This document shows positions 5,478 through 41,100 of a DNA stretch of 64,000 nucleotides, piece by piece. A program made the translations under genes and the position numbers. The notes beneath the pieces are model-generated. The model was not told the DNA's origin, did no database searches, and worked only from the letters and a program-made list of their open reading frames with translations. The stretch lies in contig JAUKPH010000023.1 in NCBI GenBank assembly GCA_030549335.1, positions 4,545,501 through 4,609,500 of the forward strand, in the 5' to 3' direction. Positions within the stretch are counted from its first letter, which is position 1; each line of letters opens with the position of its first letter. The DNA is from Pontederia crassipes (taxonomy: Eukaryota; Streptophyta; Magnoliopsida; Commelinales; Pontederiaceae).

Positions 5478-5625
5478 CCGTTACAATCAAAGATAACGCT
5501 CTTGGGGATTAGAGTCTTAGAGTTAGGTTAAAAGCTATAAGTTATAGATACTTATTACAAACTTTGGGTGCCCTATGAGGTGATAGAGCTTCATAACTTT
5601 AACTCTATTTCAAACAGAAGTTGAA

Positions 5626-15541: not shown

Positions 15542-18057
15542 CCGTTACAATCAAAGATAACGCTCTTGGGGATTAGAGTCTTAGAGTTAGGTTGAAAGCT
15601 ATAAGTTATAGATACTTATTACAACCTTTGGGTGTCCTAAGAGGTGATAGAGCTTCAGAACTTTAACTCTATTTCAAACCGAAGTTGAACCGTTACAATC
15701 AAAGATAACGCTCTTGGGGATTAGAGTCTTAGAGTTAGGTTCAAAGCTATAAGTTATAGATACTTATTACAACCTTTGGGTGTCCTAAGAGGTGATAGAT
15801 CTTTAGAACTTTAACTCTATTTCAAACCGAAGTTGAACCGTTACAATCAAAGATAACGCTCTTGGGGATTAGAGTCTTAGAGTTAGGTTCAAAGCAATAA
15901 GTTATAGATACTTATTACAACCTTTGGGTGTCCTAAGAGGTGATAGATCTTTAGAACTTTAACTCTATTTCAAACCGAAGTTGAACCGTTACAATCAAAG
16001 ATAACGCTCTTGGGGATTAGAGTCTTAGAGTTAGGTTCAAAGCTATAAGTTATAGGTACTTATTACAACCTTTGGGTGTCCTAAGAGGTGATAGAACTTC
16101 AGAACTTTAACTCTATTTCAAACCGAAGTTGAACCGTTACAATCAAAGATAACGCTCTTGGGGATTAGAGTCTTAGAGTTAGGTTCAAAGCTATAAGTTA
16201 TAGATACTTATTACAACCTTTGGGTGTCCTAAGAGGTGATAGATCTTTAGAACTTTAACTCTATTTCAAACCGAAGTTGAACCGTTACAATAAAAAATAA
16301 CGCTCTTGGGGATTAGAGTCTTAGAGTTAGGTTCAAAGCTATAAGTTATAGATACTTATGACATCCTTTGGGTGTCCTAAGAGGTGATAGATCTTTAGAA
16401 CTTTAACTCTATTTCAAACCGAAGTTGAACCGTTACAATCAAAGATAACGCTCTTGGGGATTAGAGTCTTAGAGTTAGGTTCAAAGCTATAAGTTATATA
16501 TACTTATTACAACCTTTGGGTGTCCTAAGAGGTGATAGATCTTTAGAACTTTAACTCTATTTCAAACCGAAGTTGAACCGTTACAATCAAAGATAACGCT
16601 CTTGGGGATTAGAGTCTTAGAGTTAGGTTCAAAGCTATAAGTTATAGGTACTTATTACAACCTTTGGGTGTCCTAAGAGGTGATAGAACTTCAGAACTTT
16701 AACTCTATTTCAAACCGAAGTTGAACCGTTACAATCAAAGATAACGCTCTTGGGGATTAGAGTCTTAGAGTTAGGTTCAAAGCTATAAGTTATAGATACT
16801 TATTACAACCTTTGGGTGTCCTAAGAGGTGATAGATCTTTAGAACTTTAACTCTATTTCAAACCGAAGTTGAACCGTTACAATCAAAGATAACGCTCTTG
16901 GGGATTAGAGTCTTAGAATTAGGTTCAAAGCTATAAGTTATAGGTACTTATTACAACCTTTGGGTGTCCTAAGAGGTGATAGAACTTCAGAACTTTAACT
17001 CTATTTCAAACCGAAGTTGAACCGTTACAATCAAAGATAACGCTCTTGGGGATTAGAGTCTTAGAGTTAGGTTCAAAGCTATAAGTTATAGATACTTATT
17101 ACAACCTTTGGGTGTCCTAAGAGGTGATAGATCTTTAGAACTTTAACTCTATTTCAAACCGAAGTTGAACCGTTACAATCAAAGATAACGCTCTTGGGGA
17201 TTAGAGTCTTAGAGTTAGGTTCAAAGCTATAAGTTATAGGTACTTATTACAACCTTTGGGTGACCTAAGAGGTGATAGAACTTCAGAACTTTAACTCTAT
17301 TTCAAACCGAAGTTGAACCGTTACAATCAAAGATAACGCTCTTGGGGATTAGAGTCTTAGAGTTAGGTTCAAAGCTATAAGTTATAGATACTTATTACAA
17401 CCTTTGGGTGTCCTAAGAGGTGATAGATCTTTAGAACTTTAACTCTATTTCAAACCGAAGTTGAACTGTTACAATCAAAGATAACGCTCTTGGGGATTAG
17501 AGTCTTAGAGTTAGGTTCAAAGCAATAAGTTATAGATATTTATTACAACCTTTGGGTGTCCTAAGAGGTGATAGATCTTTAGAACTTTAACTCTATTTCA
17601 AACCGAAGTTGAACCGTTACAATCAAAGATAACGCTCTTGGGGATTAGAGTCTTAGAGTTAGGTTCAAAGCTATAAGTTATATATACTTATTACAACCTT
17701 TGGGTGTCCTAAGAGGTGATAGATCTTTAGAACTTTAACTCTATTTCAAACCGAAGTTGAACCGTTACAATCAAAGATAACGCTCTTGGGGATTAGAGTC
17801 TTAGAGTTAGGTTCAAAGCAATAAGTTATAGATATTTATTACAACCTTTGGGTGTCCTAAGAGGTGATAGATCTTTAGAACTTTAACTCTATTTCAAACC
17901 GAAGTTGAACCGTTACAATCAAAGATAACGCTCTTGGGGATTAGAGTCTTAGAGTTAGGTTCAAAGCTATAAGTTATATATACTTATTACAACCTTTGGG
18001 TGTCCTAAGAGGTGATAGATCTTTAGAACTTTAACTCTATTTCAAACCGAAGTTGAA
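15542..18057 (+). repeat. Transition segment between left and middle domains (17 monomers)
   Basis: Order H, S, Q, G, S, eM, T, G, S, G (with GAATTAGG), S, G (with GTGACC), S, q, T, q, T. The last six monomers (17170-18057) foreshadow the end of the middle-domain unit: the same GTGACC G, S, CTGTTAC-starting q, T, q, T series recurs at 23238-24125 and 32118-33005. The segment holds no non-satellite sequence. Confidence 0.8.
17466..18057 (+). repeat. q-T dimer duplicated twice
   Basis: Four monomers alternate q, T, q, T, a 296-bp dimeric period repeated twice. The first q copy begins CTGTTAC instead of CCGTTAC. The same four-monomer series appears at 23534-24125 and 32414-33005, showing that the dimer doubling preceded the larger duplications. 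Confidence 0.85.
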
Positions 18058-18797
18058 CCGTTACAATCAAAGATAATGCTCTTGGGGATTAGAGTCTTAG
18101 AGTTAGGTTCAAAGCTATAAGTTATAGATACTTATTACAACCTTTGGGTGTTCTAAGAGGTGATAGATCTTTAGAACTTTAACTCTATTTCAAACCGAAG
18201 TTGAACCGTTACAATCAAAGATAACGCTCTTGGGGATTAGAGTCTTAGAGTTAGGTTGAAAGCTATAAGTTATAGATACTTATTACAACCTTTGGGTGTC
18301 CTAAGAGGTGATAGAGCTTCAGAACTTTAACTCTATTTCAAACCGAAGTTGAACCGTTACAATCAAAGATAACGCTCTTGGGGATTAGAGTCTTAGAGTT
18401 AGGTTCAAAGCTATAAGTTATAGATACTTATTACAACCTTTTGGTGTCCTAAGAGGTGATAGATCTTTAGAACTTTAACTCTATTTCAAACCGAAGTTGA
18501 ACCGTTACAATCAAAGATAACGCTCTTGGGGATTAGAGTCTTAGAGTTAGGTTCAAAGCTATAAGTTATAGGTACTTATTACAACCTTTGGGTGTCCTAA
18601 GAGGTGATAGAACTTCAGAACTTTAACTCTATTTCAAACCGAAGTTGAACCATTACAATAAAAAATAACGCTCTTGGGGATTAGAGTCTTAGAGTTAGGT
18701 TCAAAGCTATAAGTTATAGATACTTATTACAACCTTTGGGTGTCCTAAGAGGTGATAGATCTTTAGAACTTTAACTCTATTTCAAACCGAAGTTGAA
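18058..18797 (+). repeat. Third copy of the tS-H-S-G-eS series
   Basis: Five monomers match 7846-8585 and 10954-11693 from the left domain: tS with GTGTTCTAAG, H with GGTTGAAAGC, S with CCTTTTGGTG, G, and an A-run S copy (here starting CCATTAC). The next monomer (18798) shares GAGACTTAGAGTAAGG with the left copies but switches to the H-type 3' end. This is a left-domain segment moved to the border of the middle domain. Confidence 0.88.
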
Positions 18798-21700
18798 CCG
18801 TTACAATCAAAGATAACGCTCTTGGGGATTAGAGACTTAGAGTAAGGTTCAAAGCTATAAGTTATAGGTACTTATTACAACCTTTGGGTGTCCTAAGAGG
18901 TGATAGAGCTTCAGAACTTTAACTCTATTTCAAACCGAAGTTGAACCGTTACAATCAAAGATAACGCTCTTGGGGATTAGAGTCTTAGAGTTAGGTTCAA
19001 AGAAATAAGTTATAGATACTTATTACAACCTTTGGGTGTCCTAAGAGGTGATAGATCTTTAGAACTTTAACTCTATTTCAAACCGAAGTTGAACCGTTAC
19101 AATCAAAGATAACGCTCTTGGGGATTAGAGTCTTAGAGTTAGGTTCAAAGCTATAAGTTATAGGTACTTATTACAACCTTTGGGTGTCCTAAGAGGTGAT
19201 AGAACTTCAGAACTTTAACTCTATTTCAAACCGAAGTTGAACCGTTACAATCAAAGATAACGCTCTTGGGGATTAGAGTCTTAGAGTTAGGTTCAAAGCT
19301 ATAAGTTATAGATACTTATTACAACCTTTGGGTGTCCTAAGAGGTGATAGAACTTCAGAACTTTAACTCTATTTCAAACCGAAGTTGAACCGTTACAATC
19401 AAAGATAACGCTCTTGGGGATTAGAGTCTTAGAGTTAGGTTCAAAGCTATAAGTTATAGATACTTATTACAACCTTTGGGTGTCCTAAAAGGTGATAGAT
19501 CTTTAGAACTTTAACTCTATTTCAAACCGAAGTTGAACCGTTACAATCAAAGATAACGCTCTTGGGGATTAGAGTCTTAGAGTTAGGTTCAAAGCTATAA
19601 GTTATACATACTTATGACATCCTTTGGGTGTCCTAAGAGGTGATAGATCTTTAGAACTTTAACTCTATTTCAAACCGAAGTTGAACCGTTACAATCAAAG
19701 ATAACGCTCTTGGGGATTAGAGTCTTAGAGTTAGGTTCAAAGCTATAAGTTATACACACTTATGACATCCTATAGGTGTCCTAAGAGGTGATAGATCTTT
19801 AGAACTTTAACTCTATTTCAAACCGAAGTTGAACCGTTACAATCAAAGATAACGCTCTTGGGGATTAGAGTCTTAGAGTTCGGTTCAAAGCTATAAGTTA
19901 TACATACTAATGACATCCTTTGGGTGTCCTAAGAGGTGATAGATCTTTAGAACTTTAACTCTATTTCAAACGGAAGTTGAACCGTTACAATCAAAGATAA
20001 CGCTCTTGGGGATTAGAGTCTTAGAGTTAGGTTCAAAGCAATAAGTTATAGATACTTATTACAACCTTTGGGTGTCCTAAGAGGTGATAGATCTTTAGAA
20101 CTTTAACTCTATTTCAAACCGAAGTTGAACCGTTACAATCAAAGATAACGCTCTTGGGGATTAGAGTCTTAGAGTTAGGTTCAAAGCTATAAGTTATAGG
20201 TACTTATTACAACCTTTGGGTGTCCTAAGAGGTGATAGAACTTCAGAACTTTAACTCTATTTCAAACCGAAGTTGAACCGTTACAATCAAAGATAACGCT
20301 CTTGGGGATTAGAGTCTTAGAGTTAGGTTCAAAGCTATAAGTTATAGATACTTATTACAACCTTTGGGTGTCCTAAGAGGTGATAGATCTTTAGAACTTT
20401 AACTCTATTTCAAACCGAAGTTGAACCGTTACAATCAAAGATAACGCTCTTGGGGATTAGAGTCTTAGAGTTAGGTTCAAAGCTATAAGTTATAGATATT
20501 TATTACAAACTTTGGGTGCCCTAAGAGGTGATAGAGCTTCATAACTTTAACTCTATTTCAAACCGAAGTTGAACCGTTACAATCAAAGATAATGCTCTTG
20601 GGGATTAGAGTCTTAGAGTTAGGTTCAAAGCTATAAGTTATAGATACTTATTACAACCTTTGGGTGTCCTAAGAGGTGATAGATCTTTAGAACTTTAACT
20701 CTATTTCAAACCGAAGTTGAACCGTTACAATCAAAGATAACGCTCTTGGGGATTAGAGTCTTAGAGTTAGGTTCAAAGCAATAAGTTATAGATACTTATT
20801 ACAACCTTTGGGTGTCCTAAGAGGTGATAGATCTTTAGAACTTTAACTCTATTTCAAACCGAAGTTGAACCGTTACAATCAAAGATAACGCTCTTGGGGA
20901 TTAGAGTCTTAGAGTTAGGTTCAAAGCAATAAGTTATAGATACTTATTACAACCTTTGGGTGTCCTAAGAGGTGGTAGAACTTCAGAACTTTAACTCTAT
21001 TTCAAACCGAAGTTGAACCGTTACAATCAAAGATAACGCTCTTGGGGATTAGAGTCTTAGAGTTAGGTTCAAAGCTATAAGTTATAGATACTTATTACAA
21101 ACTTTGGGTGCCCTAAGAGGTGATAGAGCTTCATAACTTTAACTCTATTTCAAACCGAAGTTGAACCGTTACAATCCAAGATAACGCTCTTGGGGATTAG
21201 AGTCTTAGAGTTAGGTTCAAAGCTATAAGTTATAGATACTTATTACAACCTTTGGGTGTCCTTAGAGGTGATAGATCTTTAGAACTTTAACTCTATTTCA
21301 AACCGAAGTTGAACCGTTACAATCAAAGATAACGCTCTTGGGGATTAGAGTCTTAGAGTTAAGTTCAAAGCTATAAGTTATAGATACTTATTACAACCTT
21401 TGGGTGTCCTAAGAGGTGATAGATCTTTAGAACTTTAACTCTATTTCAAACCGAAGTTGAACCGTTACAATCAAAGATAACGCTCTTGGGGATTAGAGTC
21501 TTAGAGTTAGGCTCAAAGCAATAAGTTATAGATACTTATTACAACCTTTGGGTGTCCTAAGAGGTGATAGATCTTTAGAACTTTAACTCTATTTCAAACC
21601 GAAGTTGAACCGTTACAATCAAAGATAACGCTCTTGGGGATTAGAGTCTTAGAGTTAAGTTCAAAGCTATAAGTTATAGATACTTATTACAACCTTTGGG

Positions 21701-24125
21701 TGTCCTAAGAGGTGATAGATCTTTAGAACTTTAACTCTATTTCAAACCGAAGTTGAACCGTTACAATCAAAGATAACGCTCTTGGGGATTAGAGTCTTAG
21801 AGTTAGGTTCAAAGCTATAAGTTATATATACTTATGACATCCTTTGAGTGTCCTAAGAGGTGATAGATCTTTAGAACTTTAACTCTATTTCAAACCGAAG
21901 TTGAACCGTTACAATCAAAGATAACGCTCTTGGGGATTAGAGTCTTAGAGTTAGGTTCAAAGCAACAAGTTATAGATATTTATTACAACCTTTGGGTGTC
22001 CTAAGAGGTGATAGATCTTTAGAACTTTAACTCTATTTCAAACCGAAGTTGAACCGTTACAATCAAAGATAACGCTCTTGGGGATTAGAGTCTTAGAGTT
22101 AGGTTCAAAGCAATAAGTTATAGATACTTATTACAACCTTTGGGTGTCCTAAGAGGTGATAGAACTTCAGAACTTTAACTCTATTTCAAACCGAAGTTGA
22201 ACCGTTACAATCAAAGATAACGCTCTTGGGGATTAGAGTCTTAGAGTTAGGTTCAAAGCTATAAGTTATAGATACTTATTACAAACTTTGGGTGCCCTAA
22301 GAGGTGATAGAGCTTCATAACTTTAACTCTATTTCAAACCGAAGTTGAACCGTTACAATCAAAGATAACGCTCTTGGGGATTAGAGTCTTAGAGTTAGGT
22401 TCAAAGCTATAAGTTATAGATACTTATGACATCCTTTGGGTGTCCTAAGAGGTGATAGATCTTTAGAACTTTAACTCTATTTCAAACCGAAGTTGAACCG
22501 TTACAATCAAAGATAACGCTCTTGGGGATTAGAGTCTTAGAGTTAGGTTCAAAGCTATAAGTTATATATACTTATTACAACCTTTGGGTGTCCTAAGAGG
22601 TGATAGATCTTTAGAACTTTAACTCTATTTCAAACCGAAGTTGAACCGTTACAATCAAAGATAACGCTCTTGGGGATTAGAGTCTTAGAGTTAGGTTCAA
22701 AGCTATAAGTTATAGATACTTATTACAACCTTTGGGTGTCCTAAGAGGTGATAGATCTTTAGAACTTTAACTCTATTTCAAACCGAAGTTGAACCGTTAC
22801 AATCAAAGATAACGCTCTTGGGGATTAGAGTCTTAGAGTTAGGTTCAAAGCTATAAGTTATAGGTACTTATTACAACCTTTGGGTGTCCTAAGAGGTGAT
22901 AGAACTTCAGAACTTTAACTCTATTTCAAACCGAAGTTGAACCGTTACAATCAAAGATTACGCTCTTGGGGATTAGAGTCTTAGAGTTAGGTTCAAAGCT
23001 ATAAGTTATAGATACTTATTACAACCTTTGGGTGTCCTAAGAGGTGATAGATCTTTAGAACTTTAACTCTATTTCAAACCGAAGTTGAACCGTTACAATC
23101 AAAGATAACACTCTTGGGGATTAGAGTCTTAGAGTTAGGTTCAAAGCTATAAGTTATAGGTACTTATTACAACCTTTGGGTGTCCTAAGAGGTGATAGAA
23201 CTTCAGAACTTTAACTCTATTTCAAACCGAAGTTGAACCGTTACAATCAAAGATAACGCTCTTGGGGATTAGAGTCTTAGAGTTAGGTTCAAAGCTATAA
23301 GTTATAGGTACTTATTACAACCTTTGGGTGACCTAAGAGGTGATAGAACTTCAGAACTTTAACTCTATTTCAAACCGAAGTTGAACCGTTACAATCAAAG
23401 ATAACGCTCTTGGGGATTAGAGTCTTAGAGTTAGGTTCAAAGCTATAAGTTATAGATACTTATTACAACCTTTGGGTGTCCTAAGAGGTGATAGATCTTT
23501 AGAACTTTAACTCTATTTCAAACCGAAGTTGAACTGTTACAATCAAAGATAACGCTCTTGGGGATTAGAGTCTTAGAGTTAGGTTCAAAGCAATAAGTTA
23601 TAGATATTTATTACAACCTTTGGGTGTCCTAAGAGGTGATAGATCTTTAGAACTTTAACTCTATTTCAAACCGAAGTTGAACCGTTACAATCAAAGATAA
23701 CGCTCTTGGGGATTAGAGTCTTAGAGTTAGGTTCAAAGCTATAAGTTATATATACTTATTACAACCTTTGGGTGTCCTAAGAGGTGATAGATCTTTAGAA
23801 CTTTAACTCTATTTCAAACCGAAGTTGAACCGTTACAATCAAAGATAACGCTCTTGGGGATTAGAGTCTTAGAGTTAGGTTCAAAGCAATAAGTTATAGA
23901 TATTTATTACAACCTTTGGGTGTCCTAAGAGGTGATAGATCTTTAGAACTTTAACTCTATTTCAAACCGAAGTTGAACCGTTACAATCAAAGATAACGCT
24001 CTTGGGGATTAGAGTCTTAGAGTTAGGTTCAAAGCTATAAGTTATATATACTTATTACAACCTTTGGGTGTCCTAAGAGGTGATAGATCTTTAGAACTTT
24101 AACTCTATTTCAAACCGAAGTTGAA
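18798..24125 (+). repeat. 36-monomer unit E1 (5,328 bp)
   Basis: First copy of the middle-domain unit, monomers 128-163. It includes an AAAGAAATAAG copy (18946), G, an S/G chimera, a CTAAAAGG copy, the three divergent monomers at 19538-19981, Q, G, S, C with GATATTT, tS, Q, Q with GGTGGTAG, C, CAATCCAAG with CCTTAGAGG, AGTTAAGTTC, AGGCTCAAAGC, AGTTAAGTTC, a T/M copy with TTTGAGTG and the remainder. It keeps a G monomer (19094) that E2 and E4 lack. Confidence 0.9.
19538..19981 (+). repeat. Three divergent GACATCC monomers in a row
   Basis: Consecutive copies carry TATACATACTTATGACATCC (19538), TATACACACTTATGACATCC with CCTATAGGTG (19686), and GTTCGGTTC plus TATACATACTAATGACATCC with AAACGGAAG (19834). 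They look like a locally tripled M-type monomer that then diverged. The trio recurs at 24718-25161, 33598-34041 and 38926-39369 and is the best tag for the middle-domain unit. The spacings are 5,180, 8,880 and 5,328 bp (35, 60 and 36 monomers). Confidence 0.9.
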
Positions 24126-27100
24126 CCGTTACAATCAAAGATAATGCTCTTGGGGATTAGAGTCTTAGAGTTAGGTTCAAAGCTATAAGTTATAGGTACT
24201 TATTACAACCTTTGGGTGTCCTAAGAGGTGATAGAGCTTCAGAACTTTAACTCTATTTCAAACCGAAGTTGAACCGTTACAATCAAAGATAACGCTCTTG
24301 GGGATTAGAGTCTTAGAGTTAGGTTCAAAGAAATAAGTTATAGATACTTATTACAACCTTTGGGTGTCCTAAGAGGTGATAGATCTTTAGAACTTTAACT
24401 CTATTTCAAACCGAAGTTGAACCGTTACAATCAAAGATAACGCTCTTGGGGATTAGAGTCTTAGAGTTAGGTTCAAAGCTATAAGTTATAGATACTTATT
24501 ACAACCTTTGGGTGTCCTAAGAGGTGATAGAACTTCAGAACTTTAACTCTATTTCAAACCGAAGTTGAACCGTTACAATCAAAGATAACGCTCTTGGGGA
24601 TTAGAGTCTTAGAGTTAGGTTCAAAGCTATAAGTTATAGATACTTATTACAACCTTTGGGTGTCCTAAAAGGTGATAGATCTTTAGAACTTTAACTCTAT
24701 TTCAAACCGAAGTTGAACCGTTACAATCAAAGATAACGCTCTTGGGGATTAGAGTCTTAGAGTTAGGTTCAAAGCTATAAGTTATACATACTTATGACAT
24801 CCTTTGGGTGTCCTAAGAGGTGATAGATCTTTAGAACTTTAACTCTATTTCAAACCGAAGTTGAACCGTTACAATCAAAGATAACGCTCTTGGGGATTAG
24901 AGTCTTAGAGTTAGGTTCAAAGCTATAAGTTATACACACTTATGACATCCTATAGGTGTCCTAAGAGGTGATAGATCTTTAGAACTTTAACTCTATTTCA
25001 AACCGAAGTTGAACCGTTACAATCAAAGATAACGCTCTTGGGGATTAGAGTCTTAGAGTTCGGTTCAAAGCTATAAGTTATACATACTAATGACATCCTT
25101 TGGGTGTCCTAAGAGGTGATAGATCTTTAGAACTTTAACTCTATTTCAAACGGAAGTTGAACCGTTACAATCAAAGATAACGCTCTTGGGGATTAGAGTC
25201 TTAGAGTTAGGTTCAAAGCAATAAGTTATAGATACTTATTACAACCTTTGGGTGTCCTAAGAGGTGATAGATCTTTAGAACTTTAACTCTATTTCAAACC
25301 GAAGTTGAACCGTTACAATCAAAGATAACGCTCTTGGGGATTAGAGTCTTAGAGTTAGGTTCAAAGCTATAAGTTATAGGTACTTATTACAACCTTTGGG
25401 TGTCCTAAGAGGTGATAGAACTTCAGAACTTTAACTCTATTTCAAACCGAAGTTGAACCGTTACAATCAAAGATAACGCTCTTGGGGATTAGAGTCTTAG
25501 AGTTAGGTTCAAAGCTATAAGTTATAGATACTTATTACAACCTTTGGGTGTCCTAAGAGGTGATAGATCTTTAGAACTTTAACTCTATTTCAAACCGAAG
25601 TTGAACCGTTACAATCAAAGATAACGCTCTTGGGGATTAGAGTCTTAGAGTTAGGTTCAAAGCTATAAGTTATAGATATTTATTACAAACTTTGGGTGCC
25701 CTAAGAGGTGATAGAGCTTCATAACTTTAACTCTATTTCAAACCGAAGTTGAACCGTTACAATCAAAGATAATGCTCTTGGGGATTAGAGTCTTAGAGTT
25801 AGGTTCAAAGCTATAAGTTATAGATACTTATTACAACCTTTGGGTGTCCTAAGAGGTGATAGATCTTTAGAACTTTAACTCTATTTCAAACCGAAGTTGA
25901 ACCGTTACAATCAAAGATAACCCTCTTGGGGATTAGAGTCTTAGAGTTAGGTTCAAAGCAATAAGTTATAGATACTTATTACAACCTTTGGGTGTCCTAA
26001 GAGGTGATAGATCTTTAGAACTTTAACTCTATTTCAAACCGAAGTTGAACCGTTACAATCAAAGATAACGCTCTTGGGGATTAGAGTCTTAGAGTTAGGT
26101 TCAAAGCAATAAGTTATAGATACTTATTACAACCTTTGGGTGTCCTAAGAGGTGGTAGAACTTCAGAACTTTAACTCTATTTCAAACCGAAGTTGAACCG
26201 TTACAATCAAAGATAACGCTCTTGGGGATTAGAGTCTTAGAGTTAGGTTCAAAGCTATAAGTTATAGATACTTATTACAAACTTTGGGTGCCCTAAGAGG
26301 TGATAGAGCTTCATAACTTTAACTCTATTTCAAACCGAAGTTGAACCGTTACAATCCAAGATAACGCTCTTGGGGATTAGAGTCTTAGAGTTAGGTTCAA
26401 AGCTATAAGTTATAGATACTTATTACAACCTTTGGGTGTCCTTAGAGGTGATAGATCTTTAGAACTTTAACTCTATTTCAAACCGAAGTTGAACCGTTAC
26501 AATCAAAGATAACGCTCTTGGGGATTAGAGTCTTAGAGTTAAGTTCAAAGCTATAAGTTATAGATACTTATTACAACCTTTGGGTGTCCTAAGAGGTGAT
26601 AGATCTTTAGAACTTTAACTCTATTTCAAACCGAAGTTGAACCGTTACAATCAAAGATAACGCTCTTGGGGATTAGAGTCTTAGAGTTAGGCTCAAAGCA
26701 ATAAGTTATAGATACTTATTACAACCTTTGGGTGTCCTAAGAGGTGATAGATCTTTAGAACTTTAACTCTATTTCAAACCGAAGTTGAACCGTTACAATC
26801 AAAGATAACGCTCTTGGGGATTAGAGTCTTAGAGTTAAGTTCAAAGCTATAAGTTATAGATACTTATTACAACCTTTGGGTGTCCTAAGAGGTGATAGAT
26901 CTTTAGAACTTTAACTCTATTTCAAACCGAAGTTGAACCGTTACAATCAAAGATAACGCTCTTGGGGATTAGAGTCTTAGAGTTAGGTTCAAAGCTATAA
27001 GTTATATATACTTATGACATCCTTTGAGTGTCCTAAGAGGTGATAGATCTTTAGAACTTTAACTCTATTTCAAACCGAAGTTGAACCGTTACAATCAAAG

Positions 27101-29305
27101 ATAACGCTCTTGGGGATTAGAGTCATAGAGTTAGGTTCAAAGCAACAAGTTATAGATATTTATTACAACCTTTGGGTGTCCTAAGAGGTGATAGATCTTT
27201 AGAACTTTAACTCTATTTCAAACCGAAGTTGAACCGTTACAATCAAAGATAACGCTCTTGGGGATTAGAGTCTTAGAGTTAGGTTCAAAATAATAAGTTA
27301 TAGATACTTATTACAACCTTTGGGTGTCCTAAGAGGTGATAGAACTTCAGAACTTTAACTCTATTTCAAACCGAAGTTGAACCGTTACAATCAAAGATAA
27401 CGCTCTTGGGGATTAGAGTCTTAGAGTTAGGTTCAAAGCTATAAGTTATAGATACTTATTACAAACTTTGGGTGCCCTAAGAGGTGATAGAGCTTCATAA
27501 CTTTAACTCTATTTCAAACCGAAGTTGAACCGTTACAATCAAAGATAACGCTCTTGGGGATTAGAGTCTTAGAGTTAGGTTCAAAGCTATAAGTTATAGA
27601 TACTTATGACATCCTTTGGGTGTCCTAAGAGGTGATAGATCTTTAGAACTTTAACTCTATTTCAAACCGAAGTTGAACCGTTACAATCAAAGATAACGCT
27701 CTTGGGGATTAGAGTCTTAGAGTTAGGTTCAAAGCTATAAGTTATATATACTTATTACAACCTTTGGGTGTCCTAAGAGGTGATAGATCTTTAGAACTTT
27801 AACTCTATTTCAAACCGAAGTTGAACCGTTACAATCAAAGATAACGCTCTTGGGGATTAGAGTCTTAGAGTTAGGTTCAAAGCTATAAGTTATAGATACT
27901 TATTACAACCTTTGGGTGTCCTAAGAGGTGATAGATCTTTAGAACTTTAACTCTATTTCAAACCGAAGTTGAACCGTTACAATCAAAGATAACGCTCTTG
28001 GGGATTAGAGTCTTAGAGTTAGGTTCAAAGCTATAAGTTATAGGTACTTATTACAACCTTTGGGTGTCCTAAGAGGTGATAGAACTTCAGAACTTTAACT
28101 CTATTTCAAACCGAAGTTGAACCGTTACAATCAAAGATTACGCTCTTGGGGATTAGAGTCTTAGAGTTAGGTTCAAAGCTATAAGTTATAGATACTTATT
28201 ACAACCTTTGGGTGTCCTAAGAGGTGATAGATCTTTAGAACTTTAACTCTATTTCAAACCGAAGTTGAACCGTTACAATCAAAGATAACACTCTTGGGGA
28301 TTAGAGTCTTAGAGTTAGGTTCAAAGCTATAAGTTATAGGTACTTATTACAACCTTTGGGTGTCCTAAGAGGTGATAGAACTTCAGAACTTTAACTCTAT
28401 TTCAAACCGAAGTTGAACCGTTACAATCAAAGATAACGCTCTTGGGGATTAGAGTCTTAGAGTTAGGTTCAAAGCTATAAGTTATAGATACTTATTACAA
28501 CCTTTGGGTGTCCTAAGAGGTGATAGATCTTTAGAACTTTAACTCTATTTCAAACCGAAGTTGAACCGTTACAATCAAAGATAACGCTCTTGGGGATTAG
28601 AGTCTTAGAGTTAGGTTCAAAGCTATAAGTTATAGGTACTTATTACAACCTTTGGGTGACCTAAGAGGTGATAGAACTTCAGAACTTTAACTCTATTTCA
28701 AACCGAAGTTGAACCGTTACAATCAAAGATAACGCTCTTGGGGATTAGAGTCTTAGAGTTAGGTTCAAAGCTATAAGTTATAGATACTTATTACAACCTT
28801 TGGGTGTCCTAAGAGGTGATAGATCTTTAGAACTTTAACTCTATTTCAAACCGAAGTTGAACCGTTACAATCAAAGATAACGCTCTTGGGGATTAGAGTC
28901 TTAGAGTTAGGTTCAAAGCTATAAGTTATAGATACTTATTACAAACTTTGGGTGCCCTAAGAGGTGATAGAGCTTCATAACTTTAACTCTATTTCAAACC
29001 GAAGTTGAACCGTTACAATCCAAGATAACGCTCTTGGGGATTAGAGTCTTAGAGTTAGGTTCAAAGCTATAAGTTATAGATACTTATTACAACCTTTGGG
29101 TGTCCTTAGAGGTGATAGATCTTTAGAACTTTAACTCTATTTCAAACCGAAGTTGAACCGTTACAATCAAAGATAACGCTCTTGGGGATTAGAGTCTTAG
29201 AGTTAAGTTCAAAGCTATAAGTTATAGATACTTATTACAACCTTTGGGTGTCCTAAGAGGTGATAGATCTTTAGAACTTTAACTCTATTTCAAACCGAAG
29301 TTGAA
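20426..29305 (+). repeat. 60-monomer duplication, copy F1 (8,880 bp)
   Basis: First half of a large tandem duplication that overlaps E1 and E2. From about 20327 to 28871, sequence matches 29207-37751 at a constant 8,880-bp offset. Comparing the rare markers of all monomers and most rows I found one difference (c at 25922, g at 34802). Matching breaks at 28872/37752, where the second copy switches to an A-run monomer. Confidence 0.92.
24126..29305 (+). repeat. 35-monomer unit E2 (5,180 bp)
   Basis: Second copy, 35 monomers after E1 for most of its length. It lacks one G monomer after the AAAGAAATAAG copy. It carries changes not in E1: GTCATAGAG and TTCAAAATAATAAG (monomers 27086 and 27234). 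Near the end it has an extra S monomer (28418) before the GTGACC G copy. After the S copy at 28714 it jumps back to a C, CAATCCAAG, AGTTAAG series (28862-29305) that copies an earlier part of the unit, then E3 begins. Confidence 0.9.
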
Positions 29306-32300
29306 CCGTTACAATCAAAGATAACGCTCTTGGGGATTAGAGTCTTAGAGTTAGGTTCAAAGCTATAAGTTATAGATATTTATTACAAACTTTGGGTGCC
29401 CTAAGAGGTGATAGAGCTTCATAACTTTAACTCTATTTCAAACCGAAGTTGAACCGTTACAATCAAAGATAATGCTCTTGGGGATTAGAGTCTTAGAGTT
29501 AGGTTCAAAGCTATAAGTTATAGATACTTATTACAACCTTTGGGTGTCCTAAGAGGTGATAGATCTTTAGAACTTTAACTCTATTTCAAACCGAAGTTGA
29601 ACCGTTACAATCAAAGATAACGCTCTTGGGGATTAGAGTCTTAGAGTTAGGTTCAAAGCAATAAGTTATAGATACTTATTACAACCTTTGGGTGTCCTAA
29701 GAGGTGATAGATCTTTAGAACTTTAACTCTATTTCAAACCGAAGTTGAACCGTTACAATCAAAGATAACGCTCTTGGGGATTAGAGTCTTAGAGTTAGGT
29801 TCAAAGCAATAAGTTATAGATACTTATTACAACCTTTGGGTGTCCTAAGAGGTGGTAGAACTTCAGAACTTTAACTCTATTTCAAACCGAAGTTGAACCG
29901 TTACAATCAAAGATAACGCTCTTGGGGATTAGAGTCTTAGAGTTAGGTTCAAAGCTATAAGTTATAGATACTTATTACAAACTTTGGGTGCCCTAAGAGG
30001 TGATAGAGCTTCATAACTTTAACTCTATTTCAAACCGAAGTTGAACCGTTACAATCCAAGATAACGCTCTTGGGGATTAGAGTCTTAGAGTTAGGTTCAA
30101 AGCTATAAGTTATAGATACTTATTACAACCTTTGGGTGTCCTTAGAGGTGATAGATCTTTAGAACTTTAACTCTATTTCAAACCGAAGTTGAACCGTTAC
30201 AATCAAAGATAACGCTCTTGGGGATTAGAGTCTTAGAGTTAAGTTCAAAGCTATAAGTTATAGATACTTATTACAACCTTTGGGTGTCCTAAGAGGTGAT
30301 AGATCTTTAGAACTTTAACTCTATTTCAAACCGAAGTTGAACCGTTACAATCAAAGATAACGCTCTTGGGGATTAGAGTCTTAGAGTTAGGCTCAAAGCA
30401 ATAAGTTATAGATACTTATTACAACCTTTGGGTGTCCTAAGAGGTGATAGATCTTTAGAACTTTAACTCTATTTCAAACCGAAGTTGAACCGTTACAATC
30501 AAAGATAACGCTCTTGGGGATTAGAGTCTTAGAGTTAAGTTCAAAGCTATAAGTTATAGATACTTATTACAACCTTTGGGTGTCCTAAGAGGTGATAGAT
30601 CTTTAGAACTTTAACTCTATTTCAAACCGAAGTTGAACCGTTACAATCAAAGATAACGCTCTTGGGGATTAGAGTCTTAGAGTTAGGTTCAAAGCTATAA
30701 GTTATATATACTTATGACATCCTTTGAGTGTCCTAAGAGGTGATAGATCTTTAGAACTTTAACTCTATTTCAAACCGAAGTTGAACCGTTACAATCAAAG
30801 ATAACGCTCTTGGGGATTAGAGTCTTAGAGTTAGGTTCAAAGCAACAAGTTATAGATATTTATTACAACCTTTGGGTGTCCTAAGAGGTGATAGATCTTT
30901 AGAACTTTAACTCTATTTCAAACCGAAGTTGAACCGTTACAATCAAAGATAACGCTCTTGGGGATTAGAGTCTTAGAGTTAGGTTCAAAGCAATAAGTTA
31001 TAGATACTTATTACAACCTTTGGGTGTCCTAAGAGGTGATAGAACTTCAGAACTTTAACTCTATTTCAAACCGAAGTTGAACCGTTACAATCAAAGATAA
31101 CGCTCTTGGGGATTAGAGTCTTAGAGTTAGGTTCAAAGCTATAAGTTATAGATACTTATTACAAACTTTGGGTGCCCTAAGAGGTGATAGAGCTTCATAA
31201 CTTTAACTCTATTTCAAACCGAAGTTGAACCGTTACAATCAAAGATAACGCTCTTGGGGATTAGAGTCTTAGAGTTAGGTTCAAAGCTATAAGTTATAGA
31301 TACTTATGACATCCTTTGGGTGTCCTAAGAGGTGATAGATCTTTAGAACTTTAACTCTATTTCAAACCGAAGTTGAACCGTTACAATCAAAGATAACGCT
31401 CTTGGGGATTAGAGTCTTAGAGTTAGGTTCAAAGCTATAAGTTATATATACTTATTACAACCTTTGGGTGTCCTAAGAGGTGATAGATCTTTAGAACTTT
31501 AACTCTATTTCAAACCGAAGTTGAACCGTTACAATCAAAGATAACGCTCTTGGGGATTAGAGTCTTAGAGTTAGGTTCAAAGCTATAAGTTATAGATACT
31601 TATTACAACCTTTGGGTGTCCTAAGAGGTGATAGATCTTTAGAACTTTAACTCTATTTCAAACCGAAGTTGAACCGTTACAATCAAAGATAACGCTCTTG
31701 GGGATTAGAGTCTTAGAGTTAGGTTCAAAGCTATAAGTTATAGGTACTTATTACAACCTTTGGGTGTCCTAAGAGGTGATAGAACTTCAGAACTTTAACT
31801 CTATTTCAAACCGAAGTTGAACCGTTACAATCAAAGATTACGCTCTTGGGGATTAGAGTCTTAGAGTTAGGTTCAAAGCTATAAGTTATAGATACTTATT
31901 ACAACCTTTGGGTGTCCTAAGAGGTGATAGATCTTTAGAACTTTAACTCTATTTCAAACCGAAGTTGAACCGTTACAATCAAAGATAACACTCTTGGGGA
32001 TTAGAGTCTTAGAGTTAGGTTCAAAGCTATAAGTTATAGGTACTTATTACAACCTTTGGGTGTCCTAAGAGGTGATAGAACTTCAGAACTTTAACTCTAT
32101 TTCAAACCGAAGTTGAACCGTTACAATCAAAGATAACGCTCTTGGGGATTAGAGTCTTAGAGTTAGGTTCAAAGCTATAAGTTATAGGTACTTATTACAA
32201 CCTTTGGGTGACCTAAGAGGTGATAGAACTTCAGAACTTTAACTCTATTTCAAACCGAAGTTGAACCGTTACAATCAAAGATAACGCTCTTGGGGATTAG

Positions 32301-35300
32301 AGTCTTAGAGTTAGGTTCAAAGCTATAAGTTATAGATACTTATTACAACCTTTGGGTGTCCTAAGAGGTGATAGATCTTTAGAACTTTAACTCTATTTCA
32401 AACCGAAGTTGAACTGTTACAATCAAAGATAACGCTCTTGGGGATTAGAGTCTTAGAGTTAGGTTCAAAGCAATAAGTTATAGATATTTATTACAACCTT
32501 TGGGTGTCCTAAGAGGTGATAGATCTTTAGAACTTTAACTCTATTTCAAACCGAAGTTGAACCGTTACAATCAAAGATAACGCTCTTGGGGATTAGAGTC
32601 TTAGAGTTAGGTTCAAAGCTATAAGTTATATATACTTATTACAACCTTTGGGTGTCCTAAGAGGTGATAGATCTTTAGAACTTTAACTCTATTTCAAACC
32701 GAAGTTGAACCGTTACAATCAAAGATAACGCTCTTGGGGATTAGAGTCTTAGAGTTAGGTTCAAAGCAATAAGTTATAGATATTTATTACAACCTTTGGG
32801 TGTCCTAAGAGGTGATAGATCTTTAGAACTTTAACTCTATTTCAAACCGAAGTTGAACCGTTACAATCAAAGATAACGCTCTTGGGGATTAGAGTCTTAG
32901 AGTTAGGTTCAAAGCTATAAGTTATATATACTTATTACAACCTTTGGGTGTCCTAAGAGGTGATAGATCTTTAGAACTTTAACTCTATTTCAAACCGAAG
33001 TTGAACCGTTACAATCAAAGATAATGCTCTTGGGGATTAGAGTCTTAGAGTTAGGTTCAAAGCTATAAGTTATAGGTACTTATTACAACCTTTGGGTGTC
33101 CTAAGAGGTGATAGAGCTTCAGAACTTTAACTCTATTTCAAACCGAAGTTGAACCGTTACAATCAAAGATAACGCTCTTGGGGATTAGAGTCTTAGAGTT
33201 AGGTTCAAAGAAATAAGTTATAGATACTTATTACAACCTTTGGGTGTCCTAAGAGGTGATAGATCTTTAGAACTTTAACTCTATTTCAAACCGAAGTTGA
33301 ACCGTTACAATCAAAGATAACGCTCTTGGGGATTAGAGTCTTAGAGTTAGGTTCAAAGCTATAAGTTATAGATACTTATTACAACCTTTGGGTGTCCTAA
33401 GAGGTGATAGAACTTCAGAACTTTAACTCTATTTCAAACCGAAGTTGAACCGTTACAATCAAAGATAACGCTCTTGGGGATTAGAGTCTTAGAGTTAGGT
33501 TCAAAGCTATAAGTTATAGATACTTATTACAACCTTTGGGTGTCCTAAAAGGTGATAGATCTTTAGAACTTTAACTCTATTTCAAACCGAAGTTGAACCG
33601 TTACAATCAAAGATAACGCTCTTGGGGATTAGAGTCTTAGAGTTAGGTTCAAAGCTATAAGTTATACATACTTATGACATCCTTTGGGTGTCCTAAGAGG
33701 TGATAGATCTTTAGAACTTTAACTCTATTTCAAACCGAAGTTGAACCGTTACAATCAAAGATAACGCTCTTGGGGATTAGAGTCTTAGAGTTAGGTTCAA
33801 AGCTATAAGTTATACACACTTATGACATCCTATAGGTGTCCTAAGAGGTGATAGATCTTTAGAACTTTAACTCTATTTCAAACCGAAGTTGAACCGTTAC
33901 AATCAAAGATAACGCTCTTGGGGATTAGAGTCTTAGAGTTCGGTTCAAAGCTATAAGTTATACATACTAATGACATCCTTTGGGTGTCCTAAGAGGTGAT
34001 AGATCTTTAGAACTTTAACTCTATTTCAAACGGAAGTTGAACCGTTACAATCAAAGATAACGCTCTTGGGGATTAGAGTCTTAGAGTTAGGTTCAAAGCA
34101 ATAAGTTATAGATACTTATTACAACCTTTGGGTGTCCTAAGAGGTGATAGATCTTTAGAACTTTAACTCTATTTCAAACCGAAGTTGAACCGTTACAATC
34201 AAAGATAACGCTCTTGGGGATTAGAGTCTTAGAGTTAGGTTCAAAGCTATAAGTTATAGGTACTTATTACAACCTTTGGGTGTCCTAAGAGGTGATAGAA
34301 CTTCAGAACTTTAACTCTATTTCAAACCGAAGTTGAACCGTTACAATCAAAGATAACGCTCTTGGGGATTAGAGTCTTAGAGTTAGGTTCAAAGCTATAA
34401 GTTATAGATACTTATTACAACCTTTGGGTGTCCTAAGAGGTGATAGATCTTTAGAACTTTAACTCTATTTCAAACCGAAGTTGAACCGTTACAATCAAAG
34501 ATAACGCTCTTGGGGATTAGAGTCTTAGAGTTAGGTTCAAAGCTATAAGTTATAGATATTTATTACAAACTTTGGGTGCCCTAAGAGGTGATAGAGCTTC
34601 ATAACTTTAACTCTATTTCAAACCGAAGTTGAACCGTTACAATCAAAGATAATGCTCTTGGGGATTAGAGTCTTAGAGTTAGGTTCAAAGCTATAAGTTA
34701 TAGATACTTATTACAACCTTTGGGTGTCCTAAGAGGTGATAGATCTTTAGAACTTTAACTCTATTTCAAACCGAAGTTGAACCGTTACAATCAAAGATAA
34801 CGCTCTTGGGGATTAGAGTCTTAGAGTTAGGTTCAAAGCAATAAGTTATAGATACTTATTACAACCTTTGGGTGTCCTAAGAGGTGATAGATCTTTAGAA
34901 CTTTAACTCTATTTCAAACCGAAGTTGAACCGTTACAATCAAAGATAACGCTCTTGGGGATTAGAGTCTTAGAGTTAGGTTCAAAGCAATAAGTTATAGA
35001 TACTTATTACAACCTTTGGGTGTCCTAAGAGGTGGTAGAACTTCAGAACTTTAACTCTATTTCAAACCGAAGTTGAACCGTTACAATCAAAGATAACGCT
35101 CTTGGGGATTAGAGTCTTAGAGTTAGGTTCAAAGCTATAAGTTATAGATACTTATTACAAACTTTGGGTGCCCTAAGAGGTGATAGAGCTTCATAACTTT
35201 AACTCTATTTCAAACCGAAGTTGAACCGTTACAATCCAAGATAACGCTCTTGGGGATTAGAGTCTTAGAGTTAGGTTCAAAGCTATAAGTTATAGATACT

Positions 35301-37741
35301 TATTACAACCTTTGGGTGTCCTTAGAGGTGATAGATCTTTAGAACTTTAACTCTATTTCAAACCGAAGTTGAACCGTTACAATCAAAGATAACGCTCTTG
35401 GGGATTAGAGTCTTAGAGTTAAGTTCAAAGCTATAAGTTATAGATACTTATTACAACCTTTGGGTGTCCTAAGAGGTGATAGATCTTTAGAACTTTAACT
35501 CTATTTCAAACCGAAGTTGAACCGTTACAATCAAAGATAACGCTCTTGGGGATTAGAGTCTTAGAGTTAGGCTCAAAGCAATAAGTTATAGATACTTATT
35601 ACAACCTTTGGGTGTCCTAAGAGGTGATAGATCTTTAGAACTTTAACTCTATTTCAAACCGAAGTTGAACCGTTACAATCAAAGATAACGCTCTTGGGGA
35701 TTAGAGTCTTAGAGTTAAGTTCAAAGCTATAAGTTATAGATACTTATTACAACCTTTGGGTGTCCTAAGAGGTGATAGATCTTTAGAACTTTAACTCTAT
35801 TTCAAACCGAAGTTGAACCGTTACAATCAAAGATAACGCTCTTGGGGATTAGAGTCTTAGAGTTAGGTTCAAAGCTATAAGTTATATATACTTATGACAT
35901 CCTTTGAGTGTCCTAAGAGGTGATAGATCTTTAGAACTTTAACTCTATTTCAAACCGAAGTTGAACCGTTACAATCAAAGATAACGCTCTTGGGGATTAG
36001 AGTCATAGAGTTAGGTTCAAAGCAACAAGTTATAGATATTTATTACAACCTTTGGGTGTCCTAAGAGGTGATAGATCTTTAGAACTTTAACTCTATTTCA
36101 AACCGAAGTTGAACCGTTACAATCAAAGATAACGCTCTTGGGGATTAGAGTCTTAGAGTTAGGTTCAAAATAATAAGTTATAGATACTTATTACAACCTT
36201 TGGGTGTCCTAAGAGGTGATAGAACTTCAGAACTTTAACTCTATTTCAAACCGAAGTTGAACCGTTACAATCAAAGATAACGCTCTTGGGGATTAGAGTC
36301 TTAGAGTTAGGTTCAAAGCTATAAGTTATAGATACTTATTACAAACTTTGGGTGCCCTAAGAGGTGATAGAGCTTCATAACTTTAACTCTATTTCAAACC
36401 GAAGTTGAACCGTTACAATCAAAGATAACGCTCTTGGGGATTAGAGTCTTAGAGTTAGGTTCAAAGCTATAAGTTATAGATACTTATGACATCCTTTGGG
36501 TGTCCTAAGAGGTGATAGATCTTTAGAACTTTAACTCTATTTCAAACCGAAGTTGAACCGTTACAATCAAAGATAACGCTCTTGGGGATTAGAGTCTTAG
36601 AGTTAGGTTCAAAGCTATAAGTTATATATACTTATTACAACCTTTGGGTGTCCTAAGAGGTGATAGATCTTTAGAACTTTAACTCTATTTCAAACCGAAG
36701 TTGAACCGTTACAATCAAAGATAACGCTCTTGGGGATTAGAGTCTTAGAGTTAGGTTCAAAGCTATAAGTTATAGATACTTATTACAACCTTTGGGTGTC
36801 CTAAGAGGTGATAGATCTTTAGAACTTTAACTCTATTTCAAACCGAAGTTGAACCGTTACAATCAAAGATAACGCTCTTGGGGATTAGAGTCTTAGAGTT
36901 AGGTTCAAAGCTATAAGTTATAGGTACTTATTACAACCTTTGGGTGTCCTAAGAGGTGATAGAACTTCAGAACTTTAACTCTATTTCAAACCGAAGTTGA
37001 ACCGTTACAATCAAAGATTACGCTCTTGGGGATTAGAGTCTTAGAGTTAGGTTCAAAGCTATAAGTTATAGATACTTATTACAACCTTTGGGTGTCCTAA
37101 GAGGTGATAGATCTTTAGAACTTTAACTCTATTTCAAACCGAAGTTGAACCGTTACAATCAAAGATAACACTCTTGGGGATTAGAGTCTTAGAGTTAGGT
37201 TCAAAGCTATAAGTTATAGGTACTTATTACAACCTTTGGGTGTCCTAAGAGGTGATAGAACTTCAGAACTTTAACTCTATTTCAAACCGAAGTTGAACCG
37301 TTACAATCAAAGATAACGCTCTTGGGGATTAGAGTCTTAGAGTTAGGTTCAAAGCTATAAGTTATAGATACTTATTACAACCTTTGGGTGTCCTAAGAGG
37401 TGATAGATCTTTAGAACTTTAACTCTATTTCAAACCGAAGTTGAACCGTTACAATCAAAGATAACGCTCTTGGGGATTAGAGTCTTAGAGTTAGGTTCAA
37501 AGCTATAAGTTATAGGTACTTATTACAACCTTTGGGTGACCTAAGAGGTGATAGAACTTCAGAACTTTAACTCTATTTCAAACCGAAGTTGAACCGTTAC
37601 AATCAAAGATAACGCTCTTGGGGATTAGAGTCTTAGAGTTAGGTTCAAAGCTATAAGTTATAGATACTTATTACAACCTTTGGGTGTCCTAAGAGGTGAT
37701 AGATCTTTAGAACTTTAACTCTATTTCAAACCGAAGTTGAA
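29306..37741 (+). repeat. 60-monomer duplication, copy F2 (57 monomers matched)
   Basis: Second half of the duplication. It comprises a partial middle-domain unit (29306-33005, equal to 20426-24125) and then a near-complete one (33006-37741, equal to 24126-28861). It carries the E2-specific GTCATAGAG (36001 row) and TTCAAAATAATAAG, so it arose after those mutations. The near absence of later changes makes it the youngest large event seen in the window, if not an assembly effect. Confidence 0.92.
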
Positions 37742-38185
37742 CCGTTACAATAAAAAATAACGCTCTTGGGGATTAGAGTCTTAGAGTTAGGTTCAAAGCT
37801 ATAAGTTATAGATACTTATTACAAACTTTGGGTGTCCTAAGAGGTGATAGATCTTTAGAACTTTAACTCTATTTCAAACCGAAGTTGAACCGTTACAATC
37901 AAAGATAACGCTCTTGGGGATTAGAGTCTTAGAGTTAGGTTCAAAGCAATAAGTTATAGATATTTATTACAACCTTTGGGTGTCCTAAGAGGTGATAGAT
38001 CTTTAGAACTTTAACTCTATTTCAAACCGAAGTTGAACCGTTACAATCAAAGATAACGCTCTTGGGGATTAGAGTCTTAGAGTTAGGTTCAAAGCTATAA
38101 GTTATATATACTTATTACAACCTTTGGGTGTCCTAAGAGGTGATAGATCTTTAGAACTTTAACTCTATTTCAAACCGAAGTTGAA
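37742..38185 (+). repeat. Chimeric junction monomers (3)
   Basis: 37742 is a mosaic: A-run start (eM-type), CAAACTTTGGG (C-type 84a) but GTGTCC and GATCTTTAG (S-type) afterwards. It is followed by q and T copies. The mosaic marks where the 8,880-bp repeat stops matching and the fifth middle-domain unit starts. Confidence 0.8.
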
Positions 38186-41100
38186 CCGTTACAATCAAAG
38201 ATAACGCTCTTGGGGATTAGAGTCTTAGAGTTAGGTTCAAAGCTATAAGTTATAGGTACTTATTACAACCTTTGGGTGTCCTAAGAGGTGATAGAGCTTC
38301 AGAACTTTAACTCTATTTCAAACCGAAGTTGAACCGTTACAATCAAAGATAACGCTCTTGGGGATTAGAGTCTTAGAGTTAGGTTCAAAGAAATAAGTTA
38401 TAGATACTTATTACAACCTTTGGGTGTCCTAAGAGGTGATAGATCTTTAGAACTTTAACTCTATTTCAAACCGAAGTTGAACCGTTACAATCAAAGATAA
38501 CGCTCTTGGGGATTAGAGTCTTAGAGTTAGGTTCAAAGCTATAAGTTATAGGTACTTATTACAACCTTTGGGTGTCCTAAGAGGTGATAGAACTTCAGAA
38601 CTTTAACTCTATTTCAAACCGAAGTTGAACCGTTACAATCAAAGATAACGCTCTTGGGGATTAGAGTCTTAGAGTTAGGTTCAAAGCTATAAGTTATAGA
38701 TACTTATTACAACCTTTGGGTGTCCTAAGAGGTGATAGAACTTCAGAACTTTAACTCTATTTCAAACCGAAGTTGAACCGTTACAATCAAAGATAACGCT
38801 CTTGGGGATTAGAGTCTTAGAGTTAGGTTCAAAGCTATAAGTTATAGATACTTATTACAACCTTTGGGTGTCCTAAAAGGTGATAGATCTTTAGAACTTT
38901 AACTCTATTTCAAACCGATTTTGAACCGTTACAATCAAAGATAACGCTCTTGGGGATTAGAGTCTTAGAGTTAGGTTCAAAGCTATAAGTTATACATACT
39001 TATGACATCCTTTGGGTGTCCTAAGAGGTGATAGATCTTTAGAACTTTAACTCTATTTCAAACCGAAGTTGAACCGTTACAATCAAAGATAACGCTCTTG
39101 GGGATTAGAATCTTAGAGTTAGGTTCAAAGCTATAAGTTATACACACTTATGACATCCTATGGGTGTCCTAAGAGGTGATAGATCTTTAGAACTTTAACT
39201 CTATTTCAAACCGAAGTTGCACCGTTACAATCAAAGATAACGCTCTTGGGGATTAGAGTCTTAGAGTTCGGTTCAAAGCTATAAGTTATACATACTAATG
39301 ACATCCTTTGGGTGTCCTAAGAGGTGATAGATCTTTAGAACTTTAACTCTATTTCAAACGGAAGTTGAACCGTTACAATCAAAGATAACGCTCTTGGGGA
39401 TTAGAGTCTTAGAGTTAGGTTCAAAGCAATAAGTTATAGATACTTATTACAACCTTTGGGTGTCCTAAGAGGTGATAGATCTTTAGAACTTTAACTCTAT
39501 TTCAAACCGAAGTTGAACCGTTACAATCAAAGATAACGCTCTTGGGGATTAGAGTCTTAGAGTTAGGTTCAAAGCTATAAGTTATAGGTACTTATTGCAA
39601 CCTTTGGGTGTCCTAAGAGGTGATAGAACTTCAGAACTTTAACTCTATTTCAAACCGAAGTTGAACCGTTACAATCAAAGATAACGCTCTTGGGGATTAG
39701 AGTCTTAGAGTTAGGTTCAAAGCTATAAGTTATAGATACTTATTACAACCTTTGGGTGTCCTAAGAGGTGATAGATCTTTAGAACTTTAACTCTATTTCA
39801 AACCGAAGTTGAACCGTTACAATCAAAGATAACGCTCTTGGGGATTAGAGTCTTAGAGTTAGGTTCAAAGCTATAAGTTATAGATATTTATTACAAACTT
39901 TGGGTGCCCTAAGAGGTGATAGAGCTTCATAACTTTAACTCTATTTCAAACCGAAGTTGAACCGTTACAATCAAAGATAATGCTCTTGGGGATTAGAGTC
40001 TTAGAGTTAGGTTCAAAGCTATAAGTTATAGATACTTATTACAACCTTTGGGTGTCCTAAGAGGTGATAGATCTTTAGAACTTTAACTCTATTTCAAACC
40101 GAAGTTGAACCGTTACAATCAAAGATAACGCTCTTGGGGATTAGAGTCTTAGAGTTAGGTTCAAAGCAATAAGTTATAGATACTTATTACAACCTTTGGG
40201 TGTCCTAAGAGGTGATAGATCTTTAGAACTTTAACTCTATTTCAAACCGAAGTTGAACCGTTACAATCAAAGATAACGCTCTTGGGGATTAGAGTCTTAG
40301 AGTTAGGTTCAAAGCAATAAGTTATAGATACTTATTACAACCTTTGGGTGTCCTAAGAGGTGGTAGAACTTCAGAACTTTAACTCTATTTCAAACCGAAG
40401 TTGAACCGTTACAATCAAAGATAACGCTCTTGGGGATTAGAGTCTTAGAGTTAGGTTCAAAGCTATAAGTTATAGATACTTATTACAAACTTTGGGTGCC
40501 CTAAGAGGTGATAGAGCTTCATAACTTTAACTCTATTTCAAACCGAAGTTGAACCGTTACAATCCAAGATAACGCTCTTGGGGATTAGAGTCTTAGAGTT
40601 AGGTTCAAAGCTATAAGTTATAGATACTTATTACAACCTTTGGGTGTCCTAAGAGGTGATAGATCTTTAGAACTTTAACTCTATTTCAAACCGAAGTTGA
40701 ACCGTTACAATCAAAGATAACGCTCTTGGGGATTAGAGTCTTAGAGTTAAGTTCAAAGGTATAAGTTATAGATACTTATTACAACCTTTGGGTGTCCTAA
40801 GAGGTGATAGATCTTTAGAACTTTAACTCTATTTCAAACCGAAGTTGAACCGTTACAATCAAAGATAACGCTCTTGGGGATTAGAGTCTTAGAGTTAGGC
40901 TCAAAGCAATAAGTTATAGATACTTATTACAACCTTTGGGTGTCCTAAGAGGTGATAGATCTTTAGAACTTTAACTCTATTTCAAACCGAAGTTGAACCG
41001 TTACAATCAAAGATAACGCTCTTGGGGATTAGAGTCTTAGAGTTAAGTTCAAAGCTATAAGTTATAGATACTTATTACAACCTTTGGGTGTCCTAAGAGG

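Follow-up and report, generated by a model that had tools for sequence, protein, structure and literature searches.

A young 60-monomer duplication with a patched seam in a 148-bp satellite array of Pontederia crassipes

Results

The window and the two copies of the block

We analyzed a stretch of 64,000 nucleotides from Pontederia crassipes (the window), which covers positions 4545501-4609500 of the forward strand of contig JAUKPH010000023.1 (GenBank assembly GCA_030549335.1; hereafter C23). A 148-bp satellite array fills the entire window (positions 1..64000, no strand assigned; 432.4 copies, 96% matches) and extends past both of its edges in C23. The subject of this work is a 60-monomer duplication within that array, and the 335-bp seam that separates its two copies. 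C23 has 4,614,234 bases, and the window stops 4.7 kb short of the contig end, which itself falls inside the satellite array. Comparisons beyond the window were made in 258,734 contiguous bases of the wider array (258.7 kb; C23:4355501-4614234) and genome searches in 1.13 Gb (43 contigs), all from one assembly. Positions are those of the window unless C23 is named, and the duplications and the seam patch are given on the + strand. Only five monomers in the window are of odd length (at 609, 48414, 48709, 49744 and 57589; two of 149 bp and three of 147 bp). The array may be centromeric.

A preliminary description of this DNA had proposed that 20327..28871 (copy 1) recurs at 29207..37751 (copy 2) at a constant offset of 8,880 bp (60 x 148), with a single base difference. 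Base-by-base comparison confirmed the recurrence over 8,545 bp and found the same sole mismatch, with C at 25922 in copy 1 and G at 34802 in copy 2. The change is placed on the copy-1 side because the aligned paralogous bases at 20742, 29622 and 40130 are, like that at 34802, all G, leaving C at 25922 alone. Beside the block, the 8,880-bp offset gave identities of 94.8-98.8% (mean 97.1%) in 59 bins of 500 bp (starts 1001-19501 and 29001-39001). Past approximately 39.5 kb most bins had an identity of only about 0.3 at this offset; identity returned in part near 48.5-50 kb, a region in which monomers of odd length put the copies out of register. Random monomer pairs carry 4.4-4.9 differences per 148 sites and are identical in only 1.5-5.3% of cases, depending on distance, so the block is a recent copy and not a chance match; the chance of 57 near-identical monomers running is approximately 0.044^57 = 5e-78, assuming independent monomers. 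An older pair of 35-monomer paralogues overlaps the block: A (19209..23307) and A' (24389..28487) have 4 mismatches over 4,099 bp at an offset of 5,180, and A' is carried inside copy 1 and again in copy 2 at 33269-37367.

The seam between the copies

Copy 2 lies near copy 1 on the same strand, at a whole-monomer offset and with a match of 8,545 bp against the offset of 8,880 bp, as in a tandem duplication, but with a 335-bp seam between copies that do not abut. The recent 60-monomer copy of the preliminary description stands, refined in that the layout is not plain head-to-tail: the match ends 335 bp before the full 8,880-bp period, so the seam (28872..29206) holds other sequence. This patch is an exact copy of 21028-21362, 26208-26542, 29908-30242 and 35088-35422, all within the block. 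The match to the template runs on for 43 bp into the end of copy 1 and for 149 bp into the start of copy 2; with these shared edges the exact span is 28829-29355 (527 bp). In the 258.7 kb, exact matches to the patch were found only inside the block; the next best had 1 mismatch (at 40416), followed by 4 (ungapped, + strand). A candidate donor, identical to the patch, lies seven monomers (1,036 bp) downstream. The seam has 12 differences from the sequence to the left of copy 1 and 11 from that to the right of copy 2, together with several variants found in the seam only.

The monomer classes around the seam run 45, 0, 39, 47, 22, then 11, 3, 1, 46, 39, 47, 22; the trio 39, 47, 22 stands before the block start and again seven monomers on. 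The seam can be read as a step of 53 monomers plus a step of 7, which fits an unequal exchange between homologous alleles of the array, one of them already carrying a local 7-monomer duplication (53 + 7 = 60) that would leave a seam of patched appearance. Other places in the window also have long exact runs at a 7-monomer offset (945 bp at 46446 and 790 bp at 52658). However, such an exchange requires an unseen allele, as well as a crossover in a region of a kind where crossing over is usually suppressed, and we consider it improbable.

We then compared the adjacencies at the ends of the copies. With a 961-bp seam-spanning query (28600-29560) against the whole genome, the only 100% match was the query itself, among the 39 of 2,967 first-look candidates that were scored. 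An exact counterpart of the left flank joined to the start of copy 1 stands at paralogue A' (25172; 0 mismatches in 635), and this adjacency is therefore old. The best parallel had 6 mismatches for the end of copy 1 with the seam, 5 for the seam with the start of copy 2, and 5 in 635 for the end of copy 2 with the right flank. This right flank is considered old only on account of its monomer order, which by eye resembles that of the older unit. The seam at 28829-29355 is the clearest new adjacency, but not proven to be the sole one.

The same evidence bears on whether the duplication is an assembly artefact, in which the block was assembled twice or two haplotypes were set in tandem. The contig ends inside the array just 4.7 kb past the window, and its last 3,663 bp exactly repeat sequence lying 4,292 bp earlier, which suggests an assembler near its limit. 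Yet a misjoin through overlap needs a long overlap, and no exact one above 149 bp was found at the seam, making it unlikely: along the 8,880 diagonal, five points probed near the seam gave exact overlaps of no more than 81 bp, and the overlaps with the patch template are those of 43 and 149 bp. The 1 kb flanking the copies is 96.2% identical on the left and 97.4% on the right, the copies themselves differ at one base, and similar events occur throughout 258 kb of C23, though all come from the same assembly. We regard an artefact as unlikely, and as the least probable of the explanations considered here.

A series of duplications in the wider array

Duplications in the 258.7 kb were sought by a log-odds scan of 1,998 diagonals, each with an exact run of at least 400 bp. 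This gave 52 segments scoring above 50, from which 18 were chosen by |offset - match| < 0.3 of the offset. Four were dropped. The event of offset 5,180 at 19209 is older and has a gap of 1,081, and that of offset 3,700 at 25507 is secondary to nesting; the other two, at C23:4379663 (offset 3,108) and C23:4355866 (offset 3,107), carry 7 and 10 mismatches, respectively. One retained event (offset 3,700 at C23:4461518) likewise has 7 mismatches, and removing it would leave 13.

The 14 kept events are recent duplications of 17-62 monomers. Their offsets, with matched lengths in brackets, are 9176 (9129), 8880 (8545), 7694 (8019), 5920 (5929), 4292 (4504), 4292 (3663, cut by the contig end), 3700 (3951), 3846 (3740), 3255 (3305), 4144 (3372), 3700 (3629), 3107 (3109), 2515 (2673) and 2516 (2314) bp. 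The 60-monomer event ranks second largest among them. Two others begin in the window: a tandem event with its first copy at 57687..61058 (offset 4,144, 28 monomers, 3 mismatches), and one whose first copy runs from 60780 to the window edge (60780..64000; offset 4,292, 29 monomers, 0 mismatches in 3,663 bp), its second copy lying entirely beyond the window, where the contig end cuts it.

All 14 offsets are in whole-monomer register. Nine are multiples of 148 with no odd-length monomer within the period, and the remaining five are 1-2 bp short of such a multiple, each with matching 146- or 147-bp monomers inside. That match tracks offset among the 18 chosen segments is partly a selection effect, because they were picked by |offset - match|. 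When segments were chosen by score alone, a score of at least 85 (n = 19) gave a match/offset ratio of 0.9-1.1 in 11, of 0.79-1.07 in 15 and above 1.07 in none; at a score of at least 60 (n = 36), the ratio was 0.9-1.1 in 14.

In the young events (no more than 2 mismatches, n = 8), 10 mismatches were counted in 40,757 bp of copy interior, including one pair 14 bp apart and one pair 141 bp apart, both near copy ends. One of the eight young seams is cut by the contig end, and three of the other seven have a positive gap (47, 335 and 202 bp).

A plain unequal crossover would leave copies that match over 8,880 bp or more, with one simple seam. The observed match is shorter than this by 335 bp, and one crossover by itself does not yield such a seam. 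A plain 60-monomer unequal crossover between sister chromatids could nonetheless have been followed by a separate gene conversion of the seam from the identical site seven monomers downstream. The short distance to that donor speaks for this sequence of events, as do the 7 of 14 kept events that look like plain exchanges. Against it, the copies are separated by one isolated mismatch with no conversion-like cluster, and a lone tract lying on the seam would be a coincidence; moreover, passages of PMC12321929 (citing Dong et al. 2025) put centromeric conversion in Arabidopsis at ~125 bp, shorter than 335 bp. On this balance we hold a crossover with later conversion to be rather unlikely, though the more credible of the alternatives.

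Spacing and order of monomers

Among nearest-copy pairs of rare (2-3 copy) monomers in the array (n = 166), 145 lie 17-64 monomers apart, 10 are closer (lags 1-16) and 11 further. Together with the 14 events in 258.7 kb, these 145 pairs agree with the earlier proposal that the array changes in multi-kilobase blocks. Most of the duplicated rare monomers that were seen can be assigned to blocks of 17-62 monomers. The claim is confined to blocks of this size because the power to detect small duplications is low and the classes have a preferred order. The idea that small duplications are avoided in general is weakened, as small events leave few rare pairs (power 0.12 at 1 monomer, 0.40 at 4 and 0.64 at 8). 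Only 26 pairs of identical neighbouring monomers were seen, against 59.3 expected from shuffles, a deficit that may come partly from the preferred order of the common classes.

In C23:4355501-4614234 the common classes follow the order 4 -> 3 -> 1 -> 2 -> 0 -> 4, the step 3 -> 1 being seen 50 times against 7.9 expected. This order and the scarcity of identical neighbours look like the decayed remnant of an older, short higher-order repeat; no strict repeat of that type was found when one was sought in the array.

Age of the duplication

The divergence of the 60-monomer copies is 1.2e-4 (1/8,545; 95% interval 3e-6 to 6.5e-4). At a plant mutation rate of 7e-9 per site per generation, this corresponds to approximately 8,000 generations (200 to 47,000), provided that conversion has erased no differences. 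The preliminary description called it the youngest large event in the window. This rank could not be upheld: the offset-4,292 event at 60780 shows no mismatch over 3,663 bp, and its confidence interval overlaps that of the 60-monomer event. Elsewhere in the wider array, the 52-monomer event (offset 7,694) has 7,780 identical bases.

Surroundings of the array

The 13-mers of the window were absent from 3-kb samples of C23 taken at 7 places up to 4.0 Mb, and present in such samples at all 4 places taken from 4.1 to 4.35 Mb. In the sample near 4.2 Mb the satellite is on the opposite strand, so at least one orientation switch lies on the inner side of the array. At the other side, the last 3,663 bp of C23 (4610572-4614234) match perfectly what stands 4,292 bp before them, and since the contig ends inside this repeat, the array probably continues beyond the break. 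The 148-bp satellite was also found on contigs C6, C8, C20 and C29, in addition to C23. The genome gave 45 matches to the RuBisCO large subunit (E <= 0.001), as expected of a plant, and a plastid-derived rbcL frame was closest to chains 1wdd and 5wsk, from rice and wheat, which would perhaps suit a monocot.

An anchor search split the 258.7 kb into 1,712 intervals with 403 distinct sequences. Two intervals were outliers, one of 158 bp and one of 5,374 bp that contains a long terminal repeat (LTR) element. The element (C23:4517302-4522522, outside the window) has 690-bp LTRs that are 99.3% identical, and a 5-bp target duplication (TAGAT) and TG...CA ends were recognized by eye. Its 841-codon open frame had no Pfam match at E <= 0.01.

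A name for the satellite was sought in the literature with 16-18-base pieces and a word search, and no paper matched. Repeats in the 148-bp range appear in excerpted literature for Vaccinium (monomers of 138-148 bp), one strawberry chromosome (148 bp) and rice Chr10 (148 bp).

Discussion

Satellite arrays grow by a mechanism that is called unclear in passages of PMC11579429. Break-induced replication and unequal crossover are both set out as models in the relevant text of PMC8997354, where further evaluation is considered warranted, and the part of PMC12321929 that treats the subject holds break-induced replication, which depends on RAD52 and PIF1, to be the likely primary mode of satellite expansion.

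Our own reading, to which we give roughly even confidence, is that out-of-register homologous repair enlarged the array. The likeliest form would be break-induced replication, or a related synthesis-dependent repair, in which the template was switched once. A replication fork would have broken near 28.85 kb, and the broken end would have invaded the sister chromatid inside the block, at candidate targets 53 or 18 monomers back. After copying a few hundred bases it may have detached and re-invaded at the block start (7 monomers further back, if the first target was used), from where it would have copied across the block and further. Where no switch is visible, the same process would account for the simple events found nearby. 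Homologous annealing or invasion is preferred to end joining because every step is in homologous register. A nearby templated insert is present at the seam, in that the patch has an exact 335-bp template in the block; this is consistent with break-induced replication with a template switch, but not specific to it.

Several observations weigh against this reading. Counted in mismatches, the right flank of copy 2 has no more support as an old adjacency than the seam does. Exact copies elsewhere in the array were found for 42 of 60 random 335-bp windows; an exact match of the patch is weak by itself, and the argument therefore turns on where the patch lies and on its boundaries. Seven of the 14 kept events have no seam gap and fit ordinary unequal exchange equally well, and the offset-4,292 event at 60780 has a gap merely because the contig end cuts copy 2. 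A donor was placed for the 60-monomer seam, and no unique one for the other positive-gap seams. Lastly, because the segment search prefers copies without breaks, it may overlook events that contain conversion tracts. In this small sample, drawn with that bias, the evidence leans towards patches having been made together with the duplication. As a tentative and somewhat doubtful generalization, young satellite duplications may have at their seams short templated patches that derive from within the duplicated block.

The duplication process itself is already known from centromeric satellites; the present event is of the same kind, larger, and with an informative seam. In Arabidopsis centromeres, precise in-frame indels of 1-31 monomers, with insertions from adjacent sequence, have been seen in mutation-accumulation lines (passages of PMC12321929, citing Dong et al. 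2025 for the indels). The duplications in P. crassipes resemble these insertions in being precise whole-monomer copies from adjacent sequence, but they span 17-62 monomers and were deduced from one assembly. The seam patch likewise exceeds the Arabidopsis conversion scale given in the same source. Segmental duplication is mentioned for rice Cen8 in a passage of PMC2586382, where a plant centromere region was similarly enlarged, although its repeat differs from this 148-bp satellite.

As outlined in those parts of the reviews, the model of break-induced replication (Rice 2020, via PMC8997354 and PMC12321929; Showman et al. 2024, via PMC12321929) predicts that tandem out-of-register duplications, such as are found here, arise behind a broken fork. 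Template switching is mentioned in PMC8997354, and for it the patched seam is circumstantial evidence, known from sequence alone. The unequal crossover model (Smith 1976, via the corresponding text of PMC8997354) accounts for the tandem arrangement, the register and the gapless seams of 7 of the 14 events; it also predicts that the match covers one full offset or more, and the 60-monomer event falls 335 bp short of this.

In this array a series of young events of 17-62 monomers can be followed at base resolution, and the seams of some are readable. If the generalization on patched seams is true, templated seam patches would be a sequence footprint of template switching, one that separates break-induced replication from unequal crossover. 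Patched and plain seams can be scored in any complete centromere assembly, which would make the question of how satellite arrays grow testable from sequence.

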